Positions 4,292 through 55,767 of a stretch of DNA of 64,000 nucleotides are shown here, piece by piece (the first letter of the stretch is position 1; each line of letters opens with the position of its first letter). Both the position numbers and the translations under genes were made by a program. Origin of the DNA: Muribaculum sp. (GTDB lineage: Bacteria; Bacteroidota; Bacteroidia; Bacteroidales; Muribaculaceae); the NCBI GenBank assembly GCA_023666965.1, contig JAMPAZ010000001.1, positions 946,376-1,010,375 of the forward strand. The letters run 5' to 3'. The notes under the pieces are model-generated. The model was not told where the DNA came from and searched no databases. It saw nothing but the letters and a program-made list of their open reading frames with translations.

Positions 4292-5446
4292 TTACTTTAA
4301 TTTTTTATAGTAAACAAAGTCGTCTTCTATGAGTTCGGGATGAAAAATTTTCACAAGGTCGCGAAGCAGCAAGTCAGGCTTGACGATTGCCGACTCAAAG
4401 TAGTCGTTACCGCCGGCAGGAGTCGTCTTTAAAGTGTTGTTGTACACGTTGCCGTCGATGAAGCAGCGTGTGTCCGTAAATTTTGGACATGCTGCTTTTA
4501 ATTCGTCAAGCGATGATGCTGACCCTACGTTAAGCCAAACGTCGGCTTCAGATGTCAGCCGATAGGCTTCCTCCAAGTCAACGGGCTTGGAACTGTTGCC
4601 GGTATTTTTGGTGTAGACGTAGTCTCCTCCGGCATCCGTAATTAAACGAATTGCATAGCTTTTGACGGAGGGCATGAACCATGAATCGCCATAGGGTGTG
4701 TTAAGCATCACTTTTGGACGTGGCCTGGAGTTAGTACTTAGAAACGACTTGACTTTTGACTTAACATCAGAGTATCTGTCGACTATTCCGTTAAATACGG
4801 TTTCGCCGGTTGAGCGTCGGCCGATACATTCAGACAGTGCTACAGTCCATTCGGCTTTGCCGAGGGGCGACTCTTCTACATAGTCGCCGACATACATGAA
4901 AGGAATGCCGAATTCCTTAAGCTTTTTCTCCATGGGGCTTGCTCCGTTGATGCCATAGAGCAGCACTAAATCGGGGTTGAGCGACAGGAGGAGCTCATAA
5001 TCTATGTTGCCCTCATAACCGACATCGCCTATGCTGTCGCGATTAGTGGCGATATGCGGATTGGCTATGTAGTCGAGTCCCGACACTCCGACCACGCGGT
5101 CGACGGCTCCGACGGCATCAAGCATAGCAACATGCGTCGACGACATGGCGACGATGCGTTTTGCGTCGCCGTTTAGTATCTGTCCCGAAAATCCCTCCGG
5201 AGCGGTTTCTCCGTTGCGGGCTATGAAAAGCCGGGTTGTGACGCTGTCGGCACCTTGCCATGGATTATTGACGGTGATTAAAGTACTTGACTTTCCTTCG
5301 GCTCCTTTTATGTCAAATCCTGACGCGTACTCGGGTGAATACAAAATGTGGTCAAAATCAGCTAATTTTGATGTGCCGCTTCTTCCGCAGGACGCTAAAA
5401 TGTAGAGCAGAAGTGCCACATTTAATATAGAAAATGACGCTTTCAT
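4292..5446 (-). CDS. btuF: ABC importer substrate-binding lipoprotein (BtuF-like)
   Basis: This 384-residue lipoprotein has the type III periplasmic-binding-protein fold. A lipoprotein signal ends at ILASC, so Cys20 would be lipidated. The first lobe starts around KRIVAMSSTHVAMLDAVGAVDRV, and the SLNPDLVLLYG segment is typical of the family. It should deliver the ligand from the periplasm to the BtuCD-like complex. It begins 4 bases after the btuB-like gene. It is somewhat longer than E. coli BtuF, as is common in Bacteroidales. Iron-siderophore binding would be the alternative without the riboswitch context. Confidence 0.85.
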   Translation of the reverse strand: MKASFSILNVALLLYILASCGRSGTSKLADFDHILYSPEYASGFDIKGAEGKSSTLITVNNPWQGADSVTTRLFIARNGETAPEGFSGQILNGDAKRIVAMSSTHVAMLDAVGAVDRVVGVSGLDYIANPHIATNRDSIGDVGYEGNIDYELLLSLNPDLVLLYGINGASPMEKKLKEFGIPFMYVGDYVEESPLGKAEWTVALSECIGRRSTGETVFNGIVDRYSDVKSKVKSFLSTNSRPRPKVMLNTPYGDSWFMPSVKSYAIRLITDAGGDYVYTKNTGNSSKPVDLEEAYRLTSEADVWLNVGSASSLDELKAACPKFTDTRCFIDGNVYNNTLKTTPAGGNDYFESAIVKPDLLLRDLVKIFHPELIEDDFVYYKKLK

Positions 5447-5450
5447 TATT

Positions 5451-7535
5451 TCAATAATTTAAATTAGTCTCGATATTCTTCTTTTTGAACCATTTCGGAG
5501 TGATTCCGACGAAAAACTCGAAATTGATGCCTGGCATAGGGCGAGATAGAACCGACAAATAGTCTTCATTAAAAAGATTGTTGACAGCGAGTTTCAACTG
5601 TACGTCGACAGGCTTAAGCGCCAGACCTTTTTCGAGAGAGATGTTGCTCATATAGTATTTCGGGAGGTGACCTGTCAACGTAAAGTCGTTGCTCGACATG
5701 GTGAATCGTTCTGAATAGTAGGCCCATTTATACAGAAAACTCCAGGTGCCCCACGACAGCCTTCCGGTTAGCGATGCGGAGTGCTTTGGGACGTAAGGGA
5801 GTTGCTTGCCTACTGAGCGGTCGGCCGGAGACATCTTTTCACCCTCGTTTATCGAAGGGGTCCATGAATATGATCCGTTAAAGTCGAGAAGCCAGTCCTT
5901 TGCAGGCTGGATTGAAAGGGTGGCCTTTAGTTCGATTCCGTAGGCATGGACCTTTTTCACGTTTCGAGGCGAGAAGAATCCCTTTGTTGTCGGGAGCCAG
6001 ATTATCCAATCGTTGATAAATGAATCAAACCAGGTGGCGCTTCCGCCGAGCGAGAACAACCCGGACTTTCCTGTTTCAAAACTTACTCCTGCATCATAGC
6101 TAAATCCATGCTCATTCTTTAAGTCGGGGTTGCCTCCGGGCAAAAAATAGAGGTCGTTGAGGGTCGGGAAGCGATAGTTGCGTGATATTGAAGCCTTTAC
6201 CATAACGTTGCCTGTTCGTGAAATCAGTCCGTCAATGAAGAACGCCGGGATTATTGGTGCCCACTGACTGCCGAACATATCCTCGCGAAGCACCAACGAC
6301 ATGCCTAACCGGTCAAACGGTTGCCATTTGGCAGAAGCCGATCCGGAGAGTTCGATGCGCCCTTTGTCGTAGCCAACGATTCCTTTGTCGCCGTCTTGGA
6401 GGATTATGTTCTTGTCTTTGCTGACGACAAATTGCTGGTGTACCGACAGGTTGGCGGTAAAGTACCATTTCCGGTTGGGCGTGAATTCACCGTCAGCTTG
6501 TCCGTAAATAGTGTTTACCCTGCTTCTGGAGCGGGTCATTGACGACCAATTGCCTTCGGCAACTTCACGGCGGTAGTCGTATGCCATCCAAGTGTGGATA
6601 TATCCTCCCTTCACCCCGGTCTTCCAATTGCTTCGGTTATGGTCCCAGGAGAATACTCCGCGAAATGTCTGCTCTCGTTGGCGATTTTCAAAGTCGCGTT
6701 CATTGCCGTAGTCGGTGGTTAGCAGGGGTAGTTCGCGGTTGGAATTGATATACCATGCATTAAGGCCGAATCTGTCGCCTTTCAAAGTTTTGTAATATAT
6801 CTCTTGCAAAATGTGCAGATCTTTGAAGGCTCCGGAGCGGTTACGTTCGGTAGGGTGGTACTGTCCAATTATATTATGGTTGTCGTCATAGATGTTGACT
6901 TTTTTGTCGTGGTTGATGTACTTATAATCGTTTGGCGACGATGAATAGACGGCGCGTGTTGACGACTGCCAATGTTCGTTGCCGTATGTGACACGCAGAA
7001 ATTCATCAAATGTGCTGAACGAACCGATGCCTTGTACATATTGTGCGTTGAGTCCGTCAGGTACATCCGCTAGAGTGCCGAGCTTAACCAGTCCGCCTAA
7101 TCCGCCTCCGGCCTCAGTGACCGAAGAGGTCCCGTGGAGCAACGATGCTTGGTCGATGAAGTAGGAAGGTATGGTGGAAAAGTCTGTCATTCCAAGCATT
7201 GGGTTATTGATACGCATTCCGTTCCAAGTCACCTGCGTATGGCTGGGAGATGTGCCTCGGAATGCCACGGTCGATAAAGTGGCGCGTCCGTAGCTCTTGA
7301 CAAAGACGGAGGAATTGAATGTCAGAATGTCGGCCATCGACAACGCAATATTCTCCTTAAGCGTAATCGAGTCAAAAGAAGTCTTCTGAACCCCAATCTC
7401 TTTCATCGGCCTCCTTGCCGTCACGACAACCTCCTTGAGTTGATGGACACGTTGAGCATCCGCGTCAATGCACGATGCACAACACATGATACACAATAGA
7501 GCCAATGCCCGATTGTGGTATGATGCCCGATGCAT
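5451..7535 (-). CDS. btuB: TonB-dependent cobalamin receptor (BtuB-like)
   Basis: This is an outer-membrane receptor of 694 residues from the ATG at 7535. A longer open frame to 7598 exists, but the sequence from MHRASYHNR gives a proper signal peptide, and the extra 21 residues do not. After the signal come a TonB-box-like stretch (LKEVVVTARRP), the plug with TSPSHTQVTWNGMRINNPMLG, and a 22-stranded-type barrel ending in an aromatic strand near FEFFVGITPKWF. It lies directly downstream of the BtuG-like gene, as in Bacteroides B12 loci, where BtuG caps BtuB and passes cobalamin to it. Confidence 0.88.
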   Translation of the reverse strand: MHRASYHNRALALLCIMCCASCIDADAQRVHQLKEVVVTARRPMKEIGVQKTSFDSITLKENIALSMADILTFNSSVFVKSYGRATLSTVAFRGTSPSHTQVTWNGMRINNPMLGMTDFSTIPSYFIDQASLLHGTSSVTEAGGGLGGLVKLGTLADVPDGLNAQYVQGIGSFSTFDEFLRVTYGNEHWQSSTRAVYSSSPNDYKYINHDKKVNIYDDNHNIIGQYHPTERNRSGAFKDLHILQEIYYKTLKGDRFGLNAWYINSNRELPLLTTDYGNERDFENRQREQTFRGVFSWDHNRSNWKTGVKGGYIHTWMAYDYRREVAEGNWSSMTRSRSRVNTIYGQADGEFTPNRKWYFTANLSVHQQFVVSKDKNIILQDGDKGIVGYDKGRIELSGSASAKWQPFDRLGMSLVLREDMFGSQWAPIIPAFFIDGLISRTGNVMVKASISRNYRFPTLNDLYFLPGGNPDLKNEHGFSYDAGVSFETGKSGLFSLGGSATWFDSFINDWIIWLPTTKGFFSPRNVKKVHAYGIELKATLSIQPAKDWLLDFNGSYSWTPSINEGEKMSPADRSVGKQLPYVPKHSASLTGRLSWGTWSFLYKWAYYSERFTMSSNDFTLTGHLPKYYMSNISLEKGLALKPVDVQLKLAVNNLFNEDYLSVLSRPMPGINFEFFVGITPKWFKKKNIETNLNY

Positions 7536-11496: not shown

Positions 11497-11650
11497 TGAC
11501 TTATAGTTAATGTTAAAAATGAATGGTCCTGTTCAAATTAACAATTCCGAGTCTTTGGGATAGGGCATCAGACTGTCTATGAGTCAACATCAGATCCGAG
11601 CCTATATTCCCGTAGGCAATTTTTAATATTTGGGGGTTTGAATTTTAAAT

Positions 11651-11845
11651 GGCAGGTATTCTGACTTATTCCAATTGACACGCCTTCTCACCTTCGTGGA
11701 CTATGAATCGTTTTCCTACACCGGCAATGGCTATTGTGGCAATCTTTGCGGAACTTACAGCAGCGGGTACTGTCGAGGAATCTCACCTCGTTCCCTTATT
11801 ATGCTCCGTGTTGCGACTCTCTTGTCAACGGAGCAACCATTTCGG
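11651..11845 (-). ncRNA. Cobalamin (B12) riboswitch
   Basis: The minus-strand leader has the conserved core of the cobalamin aptamer in order: GGGAACGAGGTGAGATTCC, then ACAGTACCCGCTGCTGTAA, then GTTCCGCAAAGATTGCCA, and finally AAGTCAGAATACCTGCC (11,667 to 11,651), which matches the B12 box. The 5' P1 partner lies near GGTTGC at 11,838-11,833. About 155 bases separate the aptamer from the first start codon, and they hold a GCCTA/TAGGC hairpin at 11,600-11,617 that may be part of the expression platform. Binding of cobalamin would be expected to switch off the whole seven-gene uptake operon. Confidence 0.93.
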
Positions 11846-11847
11846 TG

Positions 11848-11878
11848 CAAATTTACAAAATCATCTCAGTTTGTCAAA
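11848..11878 (-). promoter_or_regulatory. promoter of the B12 uptake operon
   Basis: On the minus strand a -33 TTTG (11,878-11,875) is followed after 19 bases by TAAATTTG (11,855-11,848), an exact match to the Bacteroidales consensus TTTG-N19/21-TAnnTTTG. Transcription would start about 4 bases further, right at the 5' edge of the riboswitch. Confidence 0.85.
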
Positions 11879-32295: not shown

Positions 32296-32433
32296 ACAAA
32301 TATCTTTGAAATATAGATTAAGACAAAGCGAATATTTACATATAAAGAAATAAAATTCCGGCATTTTTCGGAACCTACCCAACAATGTCATCAGAATGTC
32401 AGCTTAAAAGTCTACTTTTTTCTCCCTCAACGC

Positions 32434-32465
32434 CTTGTCTCGCTCAAATAAAATTCCTAATTTTG
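32434..32465 (+). promoter_or_regulatory. promoter of the defence island
   Basis: CTTG (32,434-32,437), a 20-base spacer and TAATTTTG (32,458-32,465) form a near-consensus Bacteroidales promoter. It would start transcription close to 32,470, about 20 bases before the HTH gene, and probably serves all four island genes. Confidence 0.65.
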
Positions 32466-32489
32466 TAAATAACATCAAGAAATCGTCCT

Positions 32490-32717
32490 ATGTCAACAGA
32501 AACTGTAGATACAGAAAGAGAGCGCATCAATCGGCTAAAAGTAGTTTTAGCTGAAGAGAAACGTAAAGGTAAATGGATAGCTGAACAATTAGGTAAGAAC
32601 GAAACGACCGTCTCGCAATGGTGCTCTAATACAGTCCAGACCTTTTTTGAAATACTCGTCAAAATAGCATCGATTATTAATGTTGGCTCACGCACATTAA
32701 TACATGCATATAACTGA
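32490..32717 (+). CDS. small XRE-type helix-turn-helix regulator
   Basis: This 75-residue protein is built around an HTH: INRLKVVLAEEKRKGKWIAE, then QLGKNETTVSQWCSN, with the recognition helix at about residues 36-47, and a C-terminal IASIINVGSRTLIH helix. Similar short XRE proteins often precede N6-methylase genes in Bacteroidota. It lies 5 bases before the large restriction-modification gene and downstream of a single promoter, so it could act as a controller of that system; this role is inferred from position. Confidence 0.78.
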   Translation: MSTETVDTERERINRLKVVLAEEKRKGKWIAEQLGKNETTVSQWCSNTVQTFFEILVKIASIINVGSRTLIHAYN

Positions 32718-32722
32718 CTACC

Positions 32723-35143
32723 ATGGCTAATGAACGTATAACAGAGGATATAGTGCGTAGTCATTTTAAGGATGACGCATTATTTAGATCAATAAAATGG
32801 GAAGAACAAAAATCTTCTATTAAACGTGTACAGGATCTACTAAAAGGTGAATCCAAAGGAAAAGGATCTGGTAACGGATTCCCCGAATTTATACTTTCGT
32901 TTCCGACAAATAGCAGTTATATCATTGTTATTGAATGCAAAGCAAAATTATCCGATCATGAAAGCAAGAGTCGAGATAATGCCGTTAGATATGCTGTAGA
33001 TGGCGTTCTTCATTATGCTCGTGCCCTTGCTAAAGAATATAATGTAATAGCAATTGCTGTTAGCGGTCAAAATAAGACAGAACTTAAAGTAGGTCATTTT
33101 TATTTTAAGAAAGGGGCGGCAGAATATTCTGAGATAGAAGATAAAAGCTTGCTTGCTATAGATGACTATATGCAGGTGTTTGCAGACCAATTTTTCATCA
33201 GTGATTTCTACACAAGAGATATCGCTTACAAGGCTCAATATCTTAATGAAGAATTTAATAATTATACGATTCCTGAGTATAAACGGTGTACAATGATTAG
33301 TGCTATGCTATTAGCATTAATTAATCCCAAATTCCGGGAAGGATATGAATTTGAGGATACTGCAATTTCTTTAGGTCAATCTCTTTTAGCAGCAATTGAT
33401 TCTGTTTTTGATGCTGAAGTTGATATGGTTCGTAATAAAACTGTGCTCATGAGAGAATTTGAATCAATCCTAAACGAGCCCATTTTTACCCAGAAACATA
33501 TTAAAAATAAACGAATAAAAAAGGAAGAGTACTCTCTGGCAGTTCTTAAAGAGATTATCACATATTTACACAAATATGTATACCCTCTCATTAGTCATTC
33601 CAATATTGGATATGATGTACTTGGACGTTTCTATATTGAATTTATACGGTATGCCGCAAGTGAGCAAAAATCCGGATTAGTTCTTACCCCTTCTCACATA
33701 ACAGAATTATTTTGTGATTTTGGTGATATTAATATTCACGACGTTGTTTATGATCCGTGCTGCGGAACTGGAGGGTTTCTTGTTGCTGCAATGCAGCGAC
33801 TGTTCAAGTTGGCAGGTAATAATACAAAATTAAGAGAACATATTCGCAAGTATCAGCTATGTGGGTGTGAGATTCGGTCTGATATTTTTTCATATGCATG
33901 TTCAAGTATGCGTTTTAGAGGAGATGGCAAGTCAAATATTTACAATGGTAGCTGCTTTAACTATGCACGTAGTATTGCAGAGAACCACAAGCCAACAATT
34001 TCATTCCTAAATCCGCCATATGATGTTGGTACCGCTGGTCAGTTAGAATTCATTGAACATTCTCTAAGTGTTATTAATCCAAATGCTCATGGTCGCGTTG
34101 TAGCGATTGTACAAATGAGTTGTGCTACGAAAAATGAATATGATCTCATTGCCATAAAAGAGCGGCTTCTTTCAAAGCACCACTTAAAAGCAGTTATTTC
34201 AATGCCTGATGACCTTTTTTACCCGGTTGGTGTTGTGACGTGTATCATGGTTTTTGAAGCAAACAAACCAAATATTGGACGTAAGACTTGGTTTGGTTTT
34301 TTTAAGAATGATGGATTCTTAAAACGAAAACATATTGGCAGAATTGATTTGAGACATCAATATAGCGCACTGAAAGAACGGCTACTATCTGCTTATAGGA
34401 ATCTTGATGAAATTCCCGGGCTTTCTGTAAGAAAAGAAATTATTGGTACAGATGAATGGTGTGCAGAAGCATATATGGAAACAGACTATTCAACCTTAAG
34501 GGCAGAAAATTTCGATGCAAAAATTCGTTCATATTGTGCATATAAAATAACTAGCCAGCTTCCTATATCAAATTGTGATTTGTCGCCCATTATTAAGGAT
34601 AACGCCATATCTATTGATACATCAAAATGGAAATACTTTCGATTTGATGAGATATTTCAGATAAAAAAAGGATTTTATAATAAAAAACCTGATCATGTGC
34701 CCAATGGCAGTATTCCATTTATTGGAGCAACAGATACTAATAATGGAATCACATCTTTATGCGATGAAGAAACGATTGAATCGACGTCAAAAACTGGTGA
34801 TGATAAAAATGTACCCATTGTTCATAAGATATTTAAACCCAATAGTATTACGGTTTCAAATAATGGCTCGATAGGTTTTGCATTTTATCAGCCAATTCCA
34901 TATACTTGTACCCATGATGTAAATCCCCTATATCTAAAAAATCATAAATTAAACCCTTATATTGCAATGTTCTTATGTGCTGTTATTGAACTAGATAAAT
35001 ACAGATGGACGTATGGTAGAAAATGGCGTCCAGCTCGTATGCCGGATTCTCTAATCAAACTCCCAATTACAGATAATAATACGCCTGATTGGGAATATAT
35101 GGAATTATTTATAAAAACCAGACCCTATAGTAAGTTGCTTTAA
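32723..35143 (+). CDS. single-chain restriction-modification protein (nuclease + N6-adenine methylase + specificity domain)
   Basis: This 806-residue protein seems to hold all parts of a restriction-modification enzyme. The N-terminal region has a PD-(D/E)xK-like nuclease signature, with GFPEF at 52-56 and IECK at 70-73, where Glu replaces the usual Asp. A helical region follows, then an N6-methyltransferase with motif I DPCCGTGGF (344-352) and catalytic NPPY (430-433). From about residue 635 the sequence resembles one target-recognition half of a type I S subunit (WKYFRFDEIFQIKKG, NSITVSNNGSIGFAF, RMPDSLIKLPI). That layout fits type IIG/ISP-like enzymes. The DNA is AT-rich compared with neighbours, indicating transfer. 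Nuclease activity is inferred. Confidence 0.85.
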   Translation: MANERITEDIVRSHFKDDALFRSIKWEEQKSSIKRVQDLLKGESKGKGSGNGFPEFILSFPTNSSYIIVIECKAKLSDHESKSRDNAVRYAVDGVLHYARALAKEYNVIAIAVSGQNKTELKVGHFYFKKGAAEYSEIEDKSLLAIDDYMQVFADQFFISDFYTRDIAYKAQYLNEEFNNYTIPEYKRCTMISAMLLALINPKFREGYEFEDTAISLGQSLLAAIDSVFDAEVDMVRNKTVLMREFESILNEPIFTQKHIKNKRIKKEEYSLAVLKEIITYLHKYVYPLISHSNIGYDVLGRFYIEFIRYAASEQKSGLVLTPSHITELFCDFGDINIHDVVYDPCCGTGGFLVAAMQRLFKLAGNNTKLREHIRKYQLCGCEIRSDIFSYACSSMRFRGDGKSNIYNGSCFNYARSIAENHKPTISFLNPPYDVGTAGQLEFIEHSLSVINPNAHGRVVAIVQMSCATKNEYDLIAIKERLLSKHHLKAVISMPDDLFYPVGVVTCIMVFEANKPNIGRKTWFGFFKNDGFLKRKHIGRIDLRHQYSALKERLLSAYRNLDEIPGLSVRKEIIGTDEWCAEAYMETDYSTLRAENFDAKIRSYCAYKITSQLPISNCDLSPIIKDNAISIDTSKWKYFRFDEIFQIKKGFYNKKPDHVPNGSIPFIGATDTNNGITSLCDEETIESTSKTGDDKNVPIVHKIFKPNSITVSNNGSIGFAFYQPIPYTCTHDVNPLYLKNHKLNPYIAMFLCAVIELDKYRWTYGRKWRPARMPDSLIKLPITDNNTPDWEYMELFIKTRPYSKLL

Positions 35144-35162
35144 TTTATTTTAATACTTTGAT

Positions 35163-36311
35163 ATGAATGTGAGTTCAATTAAACAATATAGTACGGACTG
35201 CGAAGATGCTCAGTTTGCTGAGAATCAACAAATTATCGAATCGGAAACTGATATTGAGCAAAGTCCTACTTCCGAAGAAAAGCGCGAATTATTAAAGAAA
35301 ACCAAGATAGTTAAACAAACGTGGTCTATTCAGGAGATTTACCAAAAAATTAAGTCTCTGCGATTGAAATTGTCTCCTGATTATCAGCGGAATGAAATCT
35401 GGCAGAACGATAAAAATACTGCATTTATTGAATCTCTCTATATGGGTATAATTGTTCCTCCAATATATGTTGTGGAGATACCAGGAGCAGATATATTAGA
35501 AGACAGCACATATGAGGTTGTTGATGGAAAGCAAAGATTAACGGCAATTAATAAATTCTTAACAAACCAATATCAACTTACGAAAAAGGCACTAGAATAT
35601 TATAAAGATTGGTTTGGCGGTAAAACATATTTGGAGATTAGAGATAATCATCCTGATATGACTTCTGAAATGCTGTCCTCTGTTTTGGACATATATGTAA
35701 TTACGGCTAATTCTCCTGAGTTTACTAAATACGATATTTTTTCAAGACTAAATAAAGGTGCTGAAAAACTTAAAGTAAATGAAATAAGAAAAGCGATTTA
35801 TCGCTCTGAGTTATTGCTAATAATTGACAAATTCGTTGATTCATATACTCATTCCGAGAATAAAGAACGTAAAGAAGAATACGAACGTGTTTTTACTGCT
35901 AATGACATAAAGAGATACGATGATTATGGGAGATTCTATTCTAGCATCGCTTTCTGTGTTCAATCCGACTTAGAGGAGTGCATAGTAAAGAATTATAATT
36001 CTCGTCCTCGAGATATGATCAATATTGTTCTTCAAGATGCTCAGAATAACACTTTAGGGCTGTCAGAATCCCAGGTAACGCGTATTCTTAATATGACGTT
36101 CAAACTTAAGAAGGATTTTCTAAAAGTCGAGGGTATCGACTATATCATTAATTCGTGTATCCCGTTTTATGAGCAAGAGGAACTTGTATTGGATAAAATG
36201 GAAGCGATAATTGAGGATGCAGTAATAATTAGTTCCCTTAAAAAATCGCCAGCGACTACTAGTAATGTAAATCTGAGACTATCCAGGATTAAAGCAATTT
36301 TATCTGAATAA
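35163..36311 (+). CDS. DUF262 (ParB/Srx-like) protein of the defence island
   Basis: This 382-residue protein has a polar N-terminus and a DUF262 domain from about residue 52. It shows LSPDYQRNEIWQ (70-81), the conserved DGKQRL (121-126) and a later SRLNKGAEKLKVNEIR segment. DUF262 is the ParB-like nuclease or NTPase fold found in GmrSD-type modified-DNA restriction and several other phage-defence systems. The DUF1524 HNH half of GmrSD is not present here. It starts 19 bases after the restriction-modification gene, and its stop overlaps the start of the HEPN gene by one base. It probably works with that partner. Confidence 0.82.
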   Translation: MNVSSIKQYSTDCEDAQFAENQQIIESETDIEQSPTSEEKRELLKKTKIVKQTWSIQEIYQKIKSLRLKLSPDYQRNEIWQNDKNTAFIESLYMGIIVPPIYVVEIPGADILEDSTYEVVDGKQRLTAINKFLTNQYQLTKKALEYYKDWFGGKTYLEIRDNHPDMTSEMLSSVLDIYVITANSPEFTKYDIFSRLNKGAEKLKVNEIRKAIYRSELLLIIDKFVDSYTHSENKERKEEYERVFTANDIKRYDDYGRFYSSIAFCVQSDLEECIVKNYNSRPRDMINIVLQDAQNNTLGLSESQVTRILNMTFKLKKDFLKVEGIDYIINSCIPFYEQEELVLDKMEAIIEDAVIISSLKKSPATTSNVNLRLSRIKAILSE

Positions 36312-36910
36312 TGGATGCAAAAGAGCACATATTATTGCAATTCAAATCGGTTTTAATGGTTCAATTTATATCCAATTTTGCTAAATTGGAGAAAGTAATC
36401 ATCCAATTATTCCAAGACCACATATACAAAATAGAACATCGGCATAAAAGCAAGCTCTATTTTATGTATGGGTGTACTGTCGGGAATGAGATTTTTTACG
36501 ATATTGAGCGTGAATGTTTATCGTTAGCTACAGTCAGAAAATATGATGATAACGAAATGTTTAAATCGTTGAAATTAAATAAAATCATAAAGTTTGATAA
36601 AAAAGAACACGTTGTAGATACATTCAATAGCAATATTGAATCCGTACAGAAAAAGAACTTAGTATTCCCTTTTCATGATTGCATATTGAAATTGATATCT
36701 ATGCGAAACAAGTTGGCTCATGAATTAGATAAAATCAATTACAGGGAATCAGATATTATAGAAACGCTTTCCATTGAAACACTTAAACGCTTTCCATTTG
36801 GATGGTCTGACGGTTGGGATTTTGAAATATTTGACAATGATTGTATTTTGCTATATAGCAATTTAATTTACCTTGATATAGCATTGACATCCGTAACCGC
36901 TAAAGCATAA
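36311..36910 (+). CDS. HEPN-domain protein coupled to the DUF262 gene
   Basis: This is a 199-residue, mostly helical protein. The segment MRNKLAHELD contains the R-x4-H motif (Arg132, His137) typical of HEPN ribonucleases, and the layout resembles the MAE_28990/MAE_18760 HEPN-like family often found next to DUF262 genes. The ATG shares one base with the DUF262 stop (TAATG), implying coupled translation. If active, it would cleave RNA and cause dormancy or abortive infection. It could instead be an inactive binding partner. It is the last gene of the AT-rich island. Confidence 0.72.
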   Translation: MDAKEHILLQFKSVLMVQFISNFAKLEKVIIQLFQDHIYKIEHRHKSKLYFMYGCTVGNEIFYDIERECLSLATVRKYDDNEMFKSLKLNKIIKFDKKEHVVDTFNSNIESVQKKNLVFPFHDCILKLISMRNKLAHELDKINYRESDIIETLSIETLKRFPFGWSDGWDFEIFDNDCILLYSNLIYLDIALTSVTAKA

Positions 36911-36938
36911 TTTAGATGTAGTGTTTGTCGCAGATAAG

Positions 36939-36962
36939 ATGAGTCGTTGAATGAGTCGTTGA
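36939..36962. repeat. 12-bp perfect tandem repeat at the right island border
   Basis: ATGAGTCGTTGA occurs twice head to tail (36,939-36,950 and 36,951-36,962), 29 bases after the last island gene. It could be an insertion-site duplication or simple slippage; I saw no matching copy at the left border. Confidence 0.6.
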
Positions 36963-37017
36963 AATTGTGTGCGGCGTTTTAACATTAATTATTGTGACTT
37001 TTATGAAAAGAATGCAC

Positions 37018-55560: not shown

Positions 55561-55569
55561 CTCTATTGT

Positions 55570-55643
55570 GGGCGTTGAGGGATTCGAACCCCCGACCCTC
55601 TGCTTGTAAGGCAGATGCTCTGAACCAGCTGAGCTAAACGCCC
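55570..55643 (-). tRNA. tRNA-Val(TAC), copy 1
   Basis: Seventy-four bases fold as a tRNA. The acceptor stem is GGGCGTT/AACGCCC, the D arm GCTCAGCTGGTTCAGAGC, the anticodon loop CTTACAA with anticodon TAC (valine), and the T arm contains GGTTCGAATCC. The CCA end is not encoded. It is identical to the copy at 55,694-55,767. Confidence 0.97.
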
Positions 55644-55693
55644 GTTATTGGGGATGCTTTTGAGGGAGAATAGAAAAGGGGAATCTTTGTGGT

Positions 55694-55767
55694 GGGCGTT
55701 GAGGGATTCGAACCCCCGACCCTCTGCTTGTAAGGCAGATGCTCTGAACCAGCTGAGCTAAACGCCC
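55694..55767 (-). tRNA. tRNA-Val(TAC), copy 2
   Basis: This is identical over all 74 bases to the neighbouring tRNA-Val(TAC) and separated from it by 50 bases. It is the first tRNA after the promoter at 55,789-55,819, so both should be made from one precursor. Confidence 0.97.

Follow-up and report, generated by a model that had tools for sequence, protein, structure and literature searches.

We identified a horizontally acquired gene cassette in a 64,000-nucleotide stretch of Muribaculum sp. DNA (assembly GCA_023666965.1, contig JAMPAZ010000001.1; hereafter, the window). The cassette carries genes for a small helix-turn-helix (HTH) protein, a BcgI-like restriction-modification (R-M) enzyme with its own specificity (S) part, a DUF262 protein and a putative HEPN RNase. 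We favor, tentatively and at slightly below even confidence, the explanation that it forms a two-layer anti-phage system, in which restriction of unmarked DNA would be combined with a DUF262 sensor able to activate the HEPN RNase. The relevant features are as follows (positions are those of the window; aa, amino acids).

32353..36975, no strand assigned: AT-rich cassette, bounded where homology to the nearest same-genus genome (G007, locus L172) is lost and regained.
32458..32465, plus strand: weak candidate for a -7 box, TAATTTTG (pattern TAnnTTTG).
32490..32717, plus strand: small HTH protein of the Cro/C1 type, 75 aa, a probable regulator (sub-threshold Pfam HTH_26/HTH_3).
32723..35143, plus strand: BcgI-like single-chain R-M-S enzyme, 806 aa (PADLOC REase_MTase_IIG and Specificity_II; Pfam N6_Mtase and Methylase_S).
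32882..32947, plus strand: PD-(D/E)xK-type nuclease motif region of the enzyme, residues 54-75 (PE...ECK), from conservation in the alignment.
33611..34297, plus strand: N6-adenine methylase domain of the enzyme, residues 297-525, with NPPY at 430-433 (Pfam N6_Mtase).
34622..35116, plus strand: single target-recognition half of the enzyme, residues 634-798 (Pfam Methylase_S).
35163..36311, plus strand: DUF262 (GmrSD_N) protein, 382 aa, lacking DUF1524, with YQR, DGKQR and FSRLN motifs (Pfam and sequence).
36311..36910, plus strand: putative HEPN RNase, 199 aa, from its RNxLAH motif and its position after the DUF262 gene, below all family cut-offs.
36704..36721, plus strand: R-x4-H motif of the putative HEPN protein, RNKLAH, residues 132-137 (sequence and conservation).

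An initial annotation of this DNA had described an AT-rich island of four tightly spaced plus-strand genes behind one promoter. Both the base composition and the layout were borne out. The GC fraction of 32353-36975 is 0.342 compared with 0.478 in the remainder of the window, and the values of 503 windows of equal size from the rest of the 64 kb are all higher (0.454-0.510). The genes are separated by 5 nt and 19 nt and then joined by a one-base overlap (TAATG) at the DUF262/HEPN junction; therefore, a single transcript is likely. A single promoter is only plausible. The spacing fits one transcript, but no sigma-70-type match was found on the plus strand before the HTH gene, and the candidate box belongs to a pattern, which we take to be of the Bacteroidetes type, that occurs in the window at near-chance frequency (50 observed compared with 42.7 expected). 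No obvious operator-type inverted repeat precedes the HTH gene. In blastn comparison with G007, homology ends at 32352 and returns at 36976. The flanking genes are presumably glgB and nfnA (the names glgB, nfnAB and metG are those of the initial annotation or our own assumption). At the equivalent site in G007 (L172:5893-8691), metG-glgB and nfnA-nfnB are retained around different open frames, the longest of which (460 aa) contains repeats that we presume to be BspA-like; therefore, this site may be a variable one. Nine other stretches from the same genus (L173-L181) contained nfnA and nfnB, and neither glgB nor the cassette genes were found within the fetched stretch.

The R-M enzyme scores 325.9 bits against PADLOC REase_MTase_IIG and exceeds the Pfam cut-offs for N6_Mtase (86 bits) and Methylase_S (54.8 bits). 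Scanning a genome collection of 84,980 species by exact short patterns returned 251 relatives of the enzyme, the best 80 of which were kept; 78 of these were aligned with the window protein. Among the 79 aligned sequences, E71 and K73 are conserved in 78, an acidic residue (E/D) at position 55 in 76, and NPP in all. Nuclease and N6-methylase motifs thus share one chain with an S-like recognition part, as expected of a BcgI-like enzyme. In BcgI, according to the part of the source available to us, an A chain (nuclease and methylase) and an S-like B chain are arranged as A2B (PMC4027205). The window enzyme resembles the type IIB enzymes BcgI and TstI of that source in its domains and differs in being fused to a single recognition half only. 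The fused C-terminus corresponds to one half of an S protein and matches the two halves of the S protein of a rumen Bacteroidales relative (L050) at 66% and 46%. Because each chain carries only half a specificity subunit, the enzyme would probably need to dimerize to read a two-part symmetrical site; as a BcgI-like enzyme, it would be expected to cut on either side of that site.

The BcgI-like family alternates often between RM with a separate two-domain S (split form) and RM joined to half an S (fused form). Single chains (738-878 aa) account for 29 of the 78 relatives; the other 49 are split or partial, the split ones mostly consisting of an RM protein of ~612 aa and a separate S protein of ~310-360 aa. 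On a tree of 41 of the 79 aligned sequences, nine switches were counted, eight of them forced, with RM bodies 84-89% identical in DNA. Three split/fused pairs were compared: in L064 versus L043, the DNA alignment skips a segment that starts close to the RM end and extends across the first recognition domain; in L036 versus L046 and L044 versus L049, the recognition parts have no DNA alignment.

The DUF262 protein contains a GmrSD_N domain at residues 56-213 (76.4 bits, above the cut-off), and its best defense models are PADLOC NsnA (140 bits) and PD-T4-2_A (76 bits). The QR, DGxQR and FxxxN motifs, which the available part of one study names for active DUF262 proteins (PMC11411939), are all intact. 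No match to the DUF1524 His-Me nuclease was found in either the DUF262 or the HEPN protein up to E=1, and we therefore did not assign the cassette to the GmrSD type IV systems, even though the DUF262 motifs are present. No relatives of the DUF262 protein were found in viral contigs, distant matches occurred in 14 plasmid records, and nothing useful was matched among solved structures.

The 199-aa protein is a putative, divergent HEPN protein with a presumed HEPN fold. We use the label because RNxLAH is invariant in three homologues and because this form of the motif was found only after DUF262 genes. MRNxLAHE is common to the three homologues (as RNKLAH or RNVLAH), the other two of which are 50% and 85% identical to the window protein. 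Among 687 distinct open reading frames (ORFs) of 150-300 aa from R-M and DUF262 neighborhoods, many of which are not real genes, the pattern RN.[LIVM][AV]H occurs in nine; all nine directly follow a DUF262 gene, six being Pfam HEPN proteins and three belonging to the same protein family as the 199-aa protein. The looser R-x4-6-H is present in 386 of the 687 and is uninformative. No relatives of the HEPN protein were found in viral contigs or plasmids. With this proviso on the HEPN label, the gene identities in the initial annotation are supported.

The HTH protein is a probable regulator. It lies under the Pfam cut-offs (best, 16.2 bits); its counterpart in another Muribaculaceae genome (G863, locus L033), which matches it at 2.2e-26, passes HTH_3 (38.1 bits). 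Some other relatives of the R-M enzyme (e.g., L058) also have an HTH gene in front of them; by eye, most loci show none.

The cassette recurs in two other genomes. Sixty-two of the 80 kept R-M relatives could be assessed, with at least 1 kb of downstream sequence (the other 18 end less than 1 kb downstream, and five loci contain runs of N). DUF262 genes occur in two of the 80 loci, both times right after the R-M genes and followed by a HEPN gene; 60 of the 62 assessable relatives lack the DUF262-HEPN module. L033, from the same family as the window genome, has all four genes in the same order and aligns along 32462-36930 at 77-86% DNA identity, except for a gap of ~90 nt in the recognition domain. 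This copy (L033:495-4600) is decaying: in-frame stops interrupt its DUF262 gene, its recognition domain is shortened, and its HEPN gene is open. An AbiH-like frame follows it. L050 carries RM, a separate S, DUF262 (67% identity to the window protein) and HEPN (50%), and no HTH gene was recognized there. The TAATG junction is common to the window, L033 and L050. The genes thus do not occur solely as independent units, a result that would have counted against the initial annotation. A fixed four-gene system was rejected, as L033 alone has all four genes and L050 lacks the HTH gene. HEPN genes of other kinds also share an operon with R-M genes in L115, L116, L118 and L122.

On the R-M tree, the module lies on two separate branches (two changes, forced by well-supported forks), and the DUF262 tree places the window and L050 proteins as sisters. 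Since the same DUF262 lineage occurs on two R-M branches, the DUF262-HEPN pair appears to move as a unit. Searches of 41, 393, 395 and 397 genomes (relatives, order, phylum and family; overlapping sets) gave no clear copy of the HEPN family besides those in the window and G863 (the genome of L033, counted once); weak profile matches in the three larger sets (one, four and one) were not counted as relatives, and the one whose neighborhood was examined (L123) falls inside a 740-aa frame. It could be argued that the R-M enzyme and the DUF262-HEPN pair merely travel together, as defense genes often do, with no functional coupling. The two units are usually found apart, and the copy in L033 is decaying and adjoins an AbiH-like gene. 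Nevertheless, we consider this improbable, given the tight spacing in three genomes, the occurrence of a single DUF262 lineage with two branches of the same R-M family, and profile searches of the three larger genome sets that showed no unlinked close copy. The genome-wide scan was baited with the R-M enzyme, which favors linked copies.

A survey of DUF262 neighborhoods in the order kept 30 loci (window included); 52 of the 247 genomes searched had given matches. Because L113, L128 and L134 have little upstream sequence, the lack of an R-M gene there means that none was seen. The gene after DUF262 is of the HEPN type in 11 loci, a Walker-A ATPase in 15 and neither in four. The ten other HEPN-type genes were confirmed, eight by passing a Pfam HEPN cut-off (including L114) and two (L116, L120) by matching PD-T4-2_B. 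Effector type follows the DUF262 branches, with three changes for HEPN compared with 9.8 on average after shuffling. Five of the 11 DUF262-HEPN pairs have R-M or methylase genes next to them: the window, L115 and L118 (C5-methylase), and L116 and L122 (type I). The other six pairs have no R-M gene alongside, the sequence of one ending 652 nt upstream. Such genes also adjoin six of the 15 ATPase-type loci (L130, L131, L132, L137, L144 and L146), and methylases precede DUF262 in L130 and L132. In the three of these loci scanned with PADLOC (L131, L144 and L146), the ATPase and the next gene are labeled NsnB and NsnC.

In L115:5672-8551 and L118:5397-8201, a C5-methylase gene overlaps or abuts DUF262 and is followed by a MAE_28990 HEPN gene. 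No restriction nuclease was found among the scanned neighbors of L115 (U32 peptidase, SiaC, OmpA-type) or L118 (AbiE pair, glycosyl hydrolase); the AbiE pair lies just upstream in L118. In the type I R-M operon of L116:3281-11548, hsdM and hsdS are separated by a gene for a YhcG-type nuclease, and hsdS and hsdR by a PD-T4-2 pair. NsnA/B/C-like genes occupy the latter position in L146 (near 5096-7036, plus the DUF262 gene); therefore, the DUF262 modules added to R-M operons extend beyond the HEPN types.

The methylase partners raise two further explanations. In the first, the methylase mark would act as an antidote, DUF262 would sense unmarked DNA, and HEPN would add an RNA-cutting blade to the DNA-cutting one. 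The C5-methylases joined to the pairs in L115 and L118, whose scanned neighbors include no restriction nuclease, and the methylases upstream of DUF262 in L130 and L132 are consistent with such gating. Yet six of the 11 pairs have no methylase, the partners span N6 and C5 methylases so that a single readout would have to fit several marks, and the HEPN gene of L033 is open though the recognition domain is shortened. We find this explanation very doubtful. Quite unlikely, too, is the broader proposal that the DUF262-HEPN pair is a plug-in effector reading methylation, so that any adjoining methylase, N6 or C5 and with or without a DNA-cutting part, would provide the self-mark for an RNA-cutting restriction system. 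If it were true, the window would hold the two-blade form, and L115 and L118 (C5-methylase, DUF262 and HEPN, with no nuclease found) the pure RNA-cutting form.

Another alternative follows the logic of PrrC: the R-M enzyme would silence the HEPN RNase, directly or through DUF262, and a phage that disables the enzyme would release it. As far as the available parts of the sources go, this guardian logic has been proposed, with good arguments, for HEPN-R-M operons generally, the MAE_28990 HEPN being described "in operon with a ParB nuclease and DNA methylase genes" (PMC3710099, Anantharaman et al. 2013), and the case that has been tested is PrrC within a type I locus (PMC12707154). The operon layout in the window fits as well. 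However, the 60 enzyme relatives lacking the pair, the six pairs standing without an R-M gene, and the HEPN gene that stays open in L033 despite its damaged partners all argue against a guardian, which we regard as rather unlikely.

Overall, the two-layer explanation accommodates these observations most readily. In the first layer, the BcgI-like enzyme, probably as a dimer on its two-part site, would methylate adenine in the host's own sites and cut DNA lacking the mark. In the second layer, the DUF262 protein would bind and hydrolyze nucleotides, sense phage DNA beyond the reach of the first layer, most likely base-modified DNA, and switch on the HEPN RNase, arresting the infected cell. The HTH protein may tune expression of the cassette. 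Two layers with separate triggers seem most likely because the DUF262-HEPN pair can stand alone, attaches to R-M systems of several chemistries and is related to proteins that target modified phage DNA. That the second layer could work alone is suggested by the six pairs without R-M genes and by L116 and L120, which match both PD-T4-2 A and B. The lack of the module in most enzyme relatives, together with the solitary pairs, supports a union of two separable units. Moreover, GmrSD relatives acting on modified DNA pair with systems directed at unmodified DNA, as the accessible parts of the reports on BrxU with BREX (PMC8565348) and TgvAB (PMC11411939) indicate. A mild argument that DUF262 is an activator and not an antitoxin comes from L033, where DUF262 is broken and HEPN open.

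Several observations weigh against this explanation. No Pfam, PADLOC or NCBIfam model matches the 199-aa protein above its cut-off. By E-value, the leading Pfam row is DUF5700 (E=0.0093, sub-threshold), which bears a zinc-peptidase name, and a HepT-like row gives E=0.026 and 14.7 bits compared with a cut-off of 23.5. When the protein was compared by profile with six other HEPN proteins, the probability was 6%, although the motif was aligned, and no solved HEPN structure was matched. The branch of the window and L050 DUF262 proteins is deep and separate from the other HEPN-linked branches, with a warning of long-branch attraction, and its function may differ. The activator argument comes from one metagenome assembly, in which the R-M gene is also shortened. 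Finally, TgvAB and BrxU, as described in the available parts of their reports, use a DNA-cutting domain that the window cassette lacks.

We compared the cassette with described systems, the published ones as given in the accessible parts of the cited sources. PADLOC, proposed as a comparison in the initial annotation, recognized the R-M enzyme (REase_MTase_IIG, Specificity_II) and an NsnA-like protein, and left the HEPN protein unmatched. The cassette is not a PD-T4-2 system: the window DUF262 protein scores 76 bits against PD-T4-2_A compared with 520-536 bits for L116 and L120, and the B component had no match to the window HEPN protein up to E=0.1. Nor is it NsnABC, a set of PADLOC names that we take to denote Menshen: an NsnA-kind DUF262 protein is present, but in place of NsnB and NsnC the next gene is the HEPN gene, followed by nfnAB. 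A literature search on NsnA/NsnB gave nothing related by title among the matches listed.

The likeness to PD-T4-2 lies in the DUF262-HEPN pair. PD-T4-2, which has been entered under both DUF262 and HEPN (PMC10952713), is anti-T4, and T4 plaquing rose when it was deleted from its native E. coli strain (PMC9519451). HEPN-ParB-methylase operons bring the same three kinds of genes together, and multi-pronged defense with R-M was proposed for them (PMC3710099); in the window, the HEPN protein has no match to the MAE_28990 model, and its partner is a BcgI-like single chain. DUF262 genes have been described in type I R-M loci, with TgvAB inside the operon (PMC11411939) and RloF-type genes between hsdS and hsdR (PMC4619093). 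These share with the window a DUF262 unit in an R-M operon, as a complementary layer against modified DNA; their effector is a DUF1524 His-Me nuclease or is not stated in the available text, whereas the window has a putative HEPN RNase and a BcgI-like R-M enzyme. BrxU, a GmrSD relative acting on modified DNA, is paired with BREX (PMC8565348), and HEPN and other nucleases have been described as back-up effectors beside BREX and Dnd systems (PMC12839542, PMC10853773). Among the papers listed by a search of titles and abstracts that covered few subscription journals, none described a BcgI-like enzyme joined to DUF262-HEPN. The initial annotation had proposed restriction coupled with a DUF262-HEPN backup, and the sequence supports the idea of restriction with such a second layer, the proposal as a whole being supported in part; the novelty it implied is smaller, as published work already contains the general design (PMC3710099, PMC11411939, as far as these were available). 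The cassette is a new combination of known parts and not a new kind of system, two-layer arrangements being already known.

Elsewhere in the window, we noted a cobalamin riboswitch (11634-11856, minus strand, 94.4 bits) and a tandem pair of tRNA-Val genes that share one anticodon (55568-55767, minus strand).

The cassette ties a DUF262 sensor that is found with interchangeable effectors, namely a His-Me nuclease, an NsnB-type ATPase and several HEPN families, to several kinds of R-M enzymes. At 4.6 kb, it offers a compact means of testing which signal these add-ons respond to: modified DNA, restriction that has failed or the absence of self-methylation. Separating these three triggers would reveal how DNA cutting and cell arrest are layered in bacteria.

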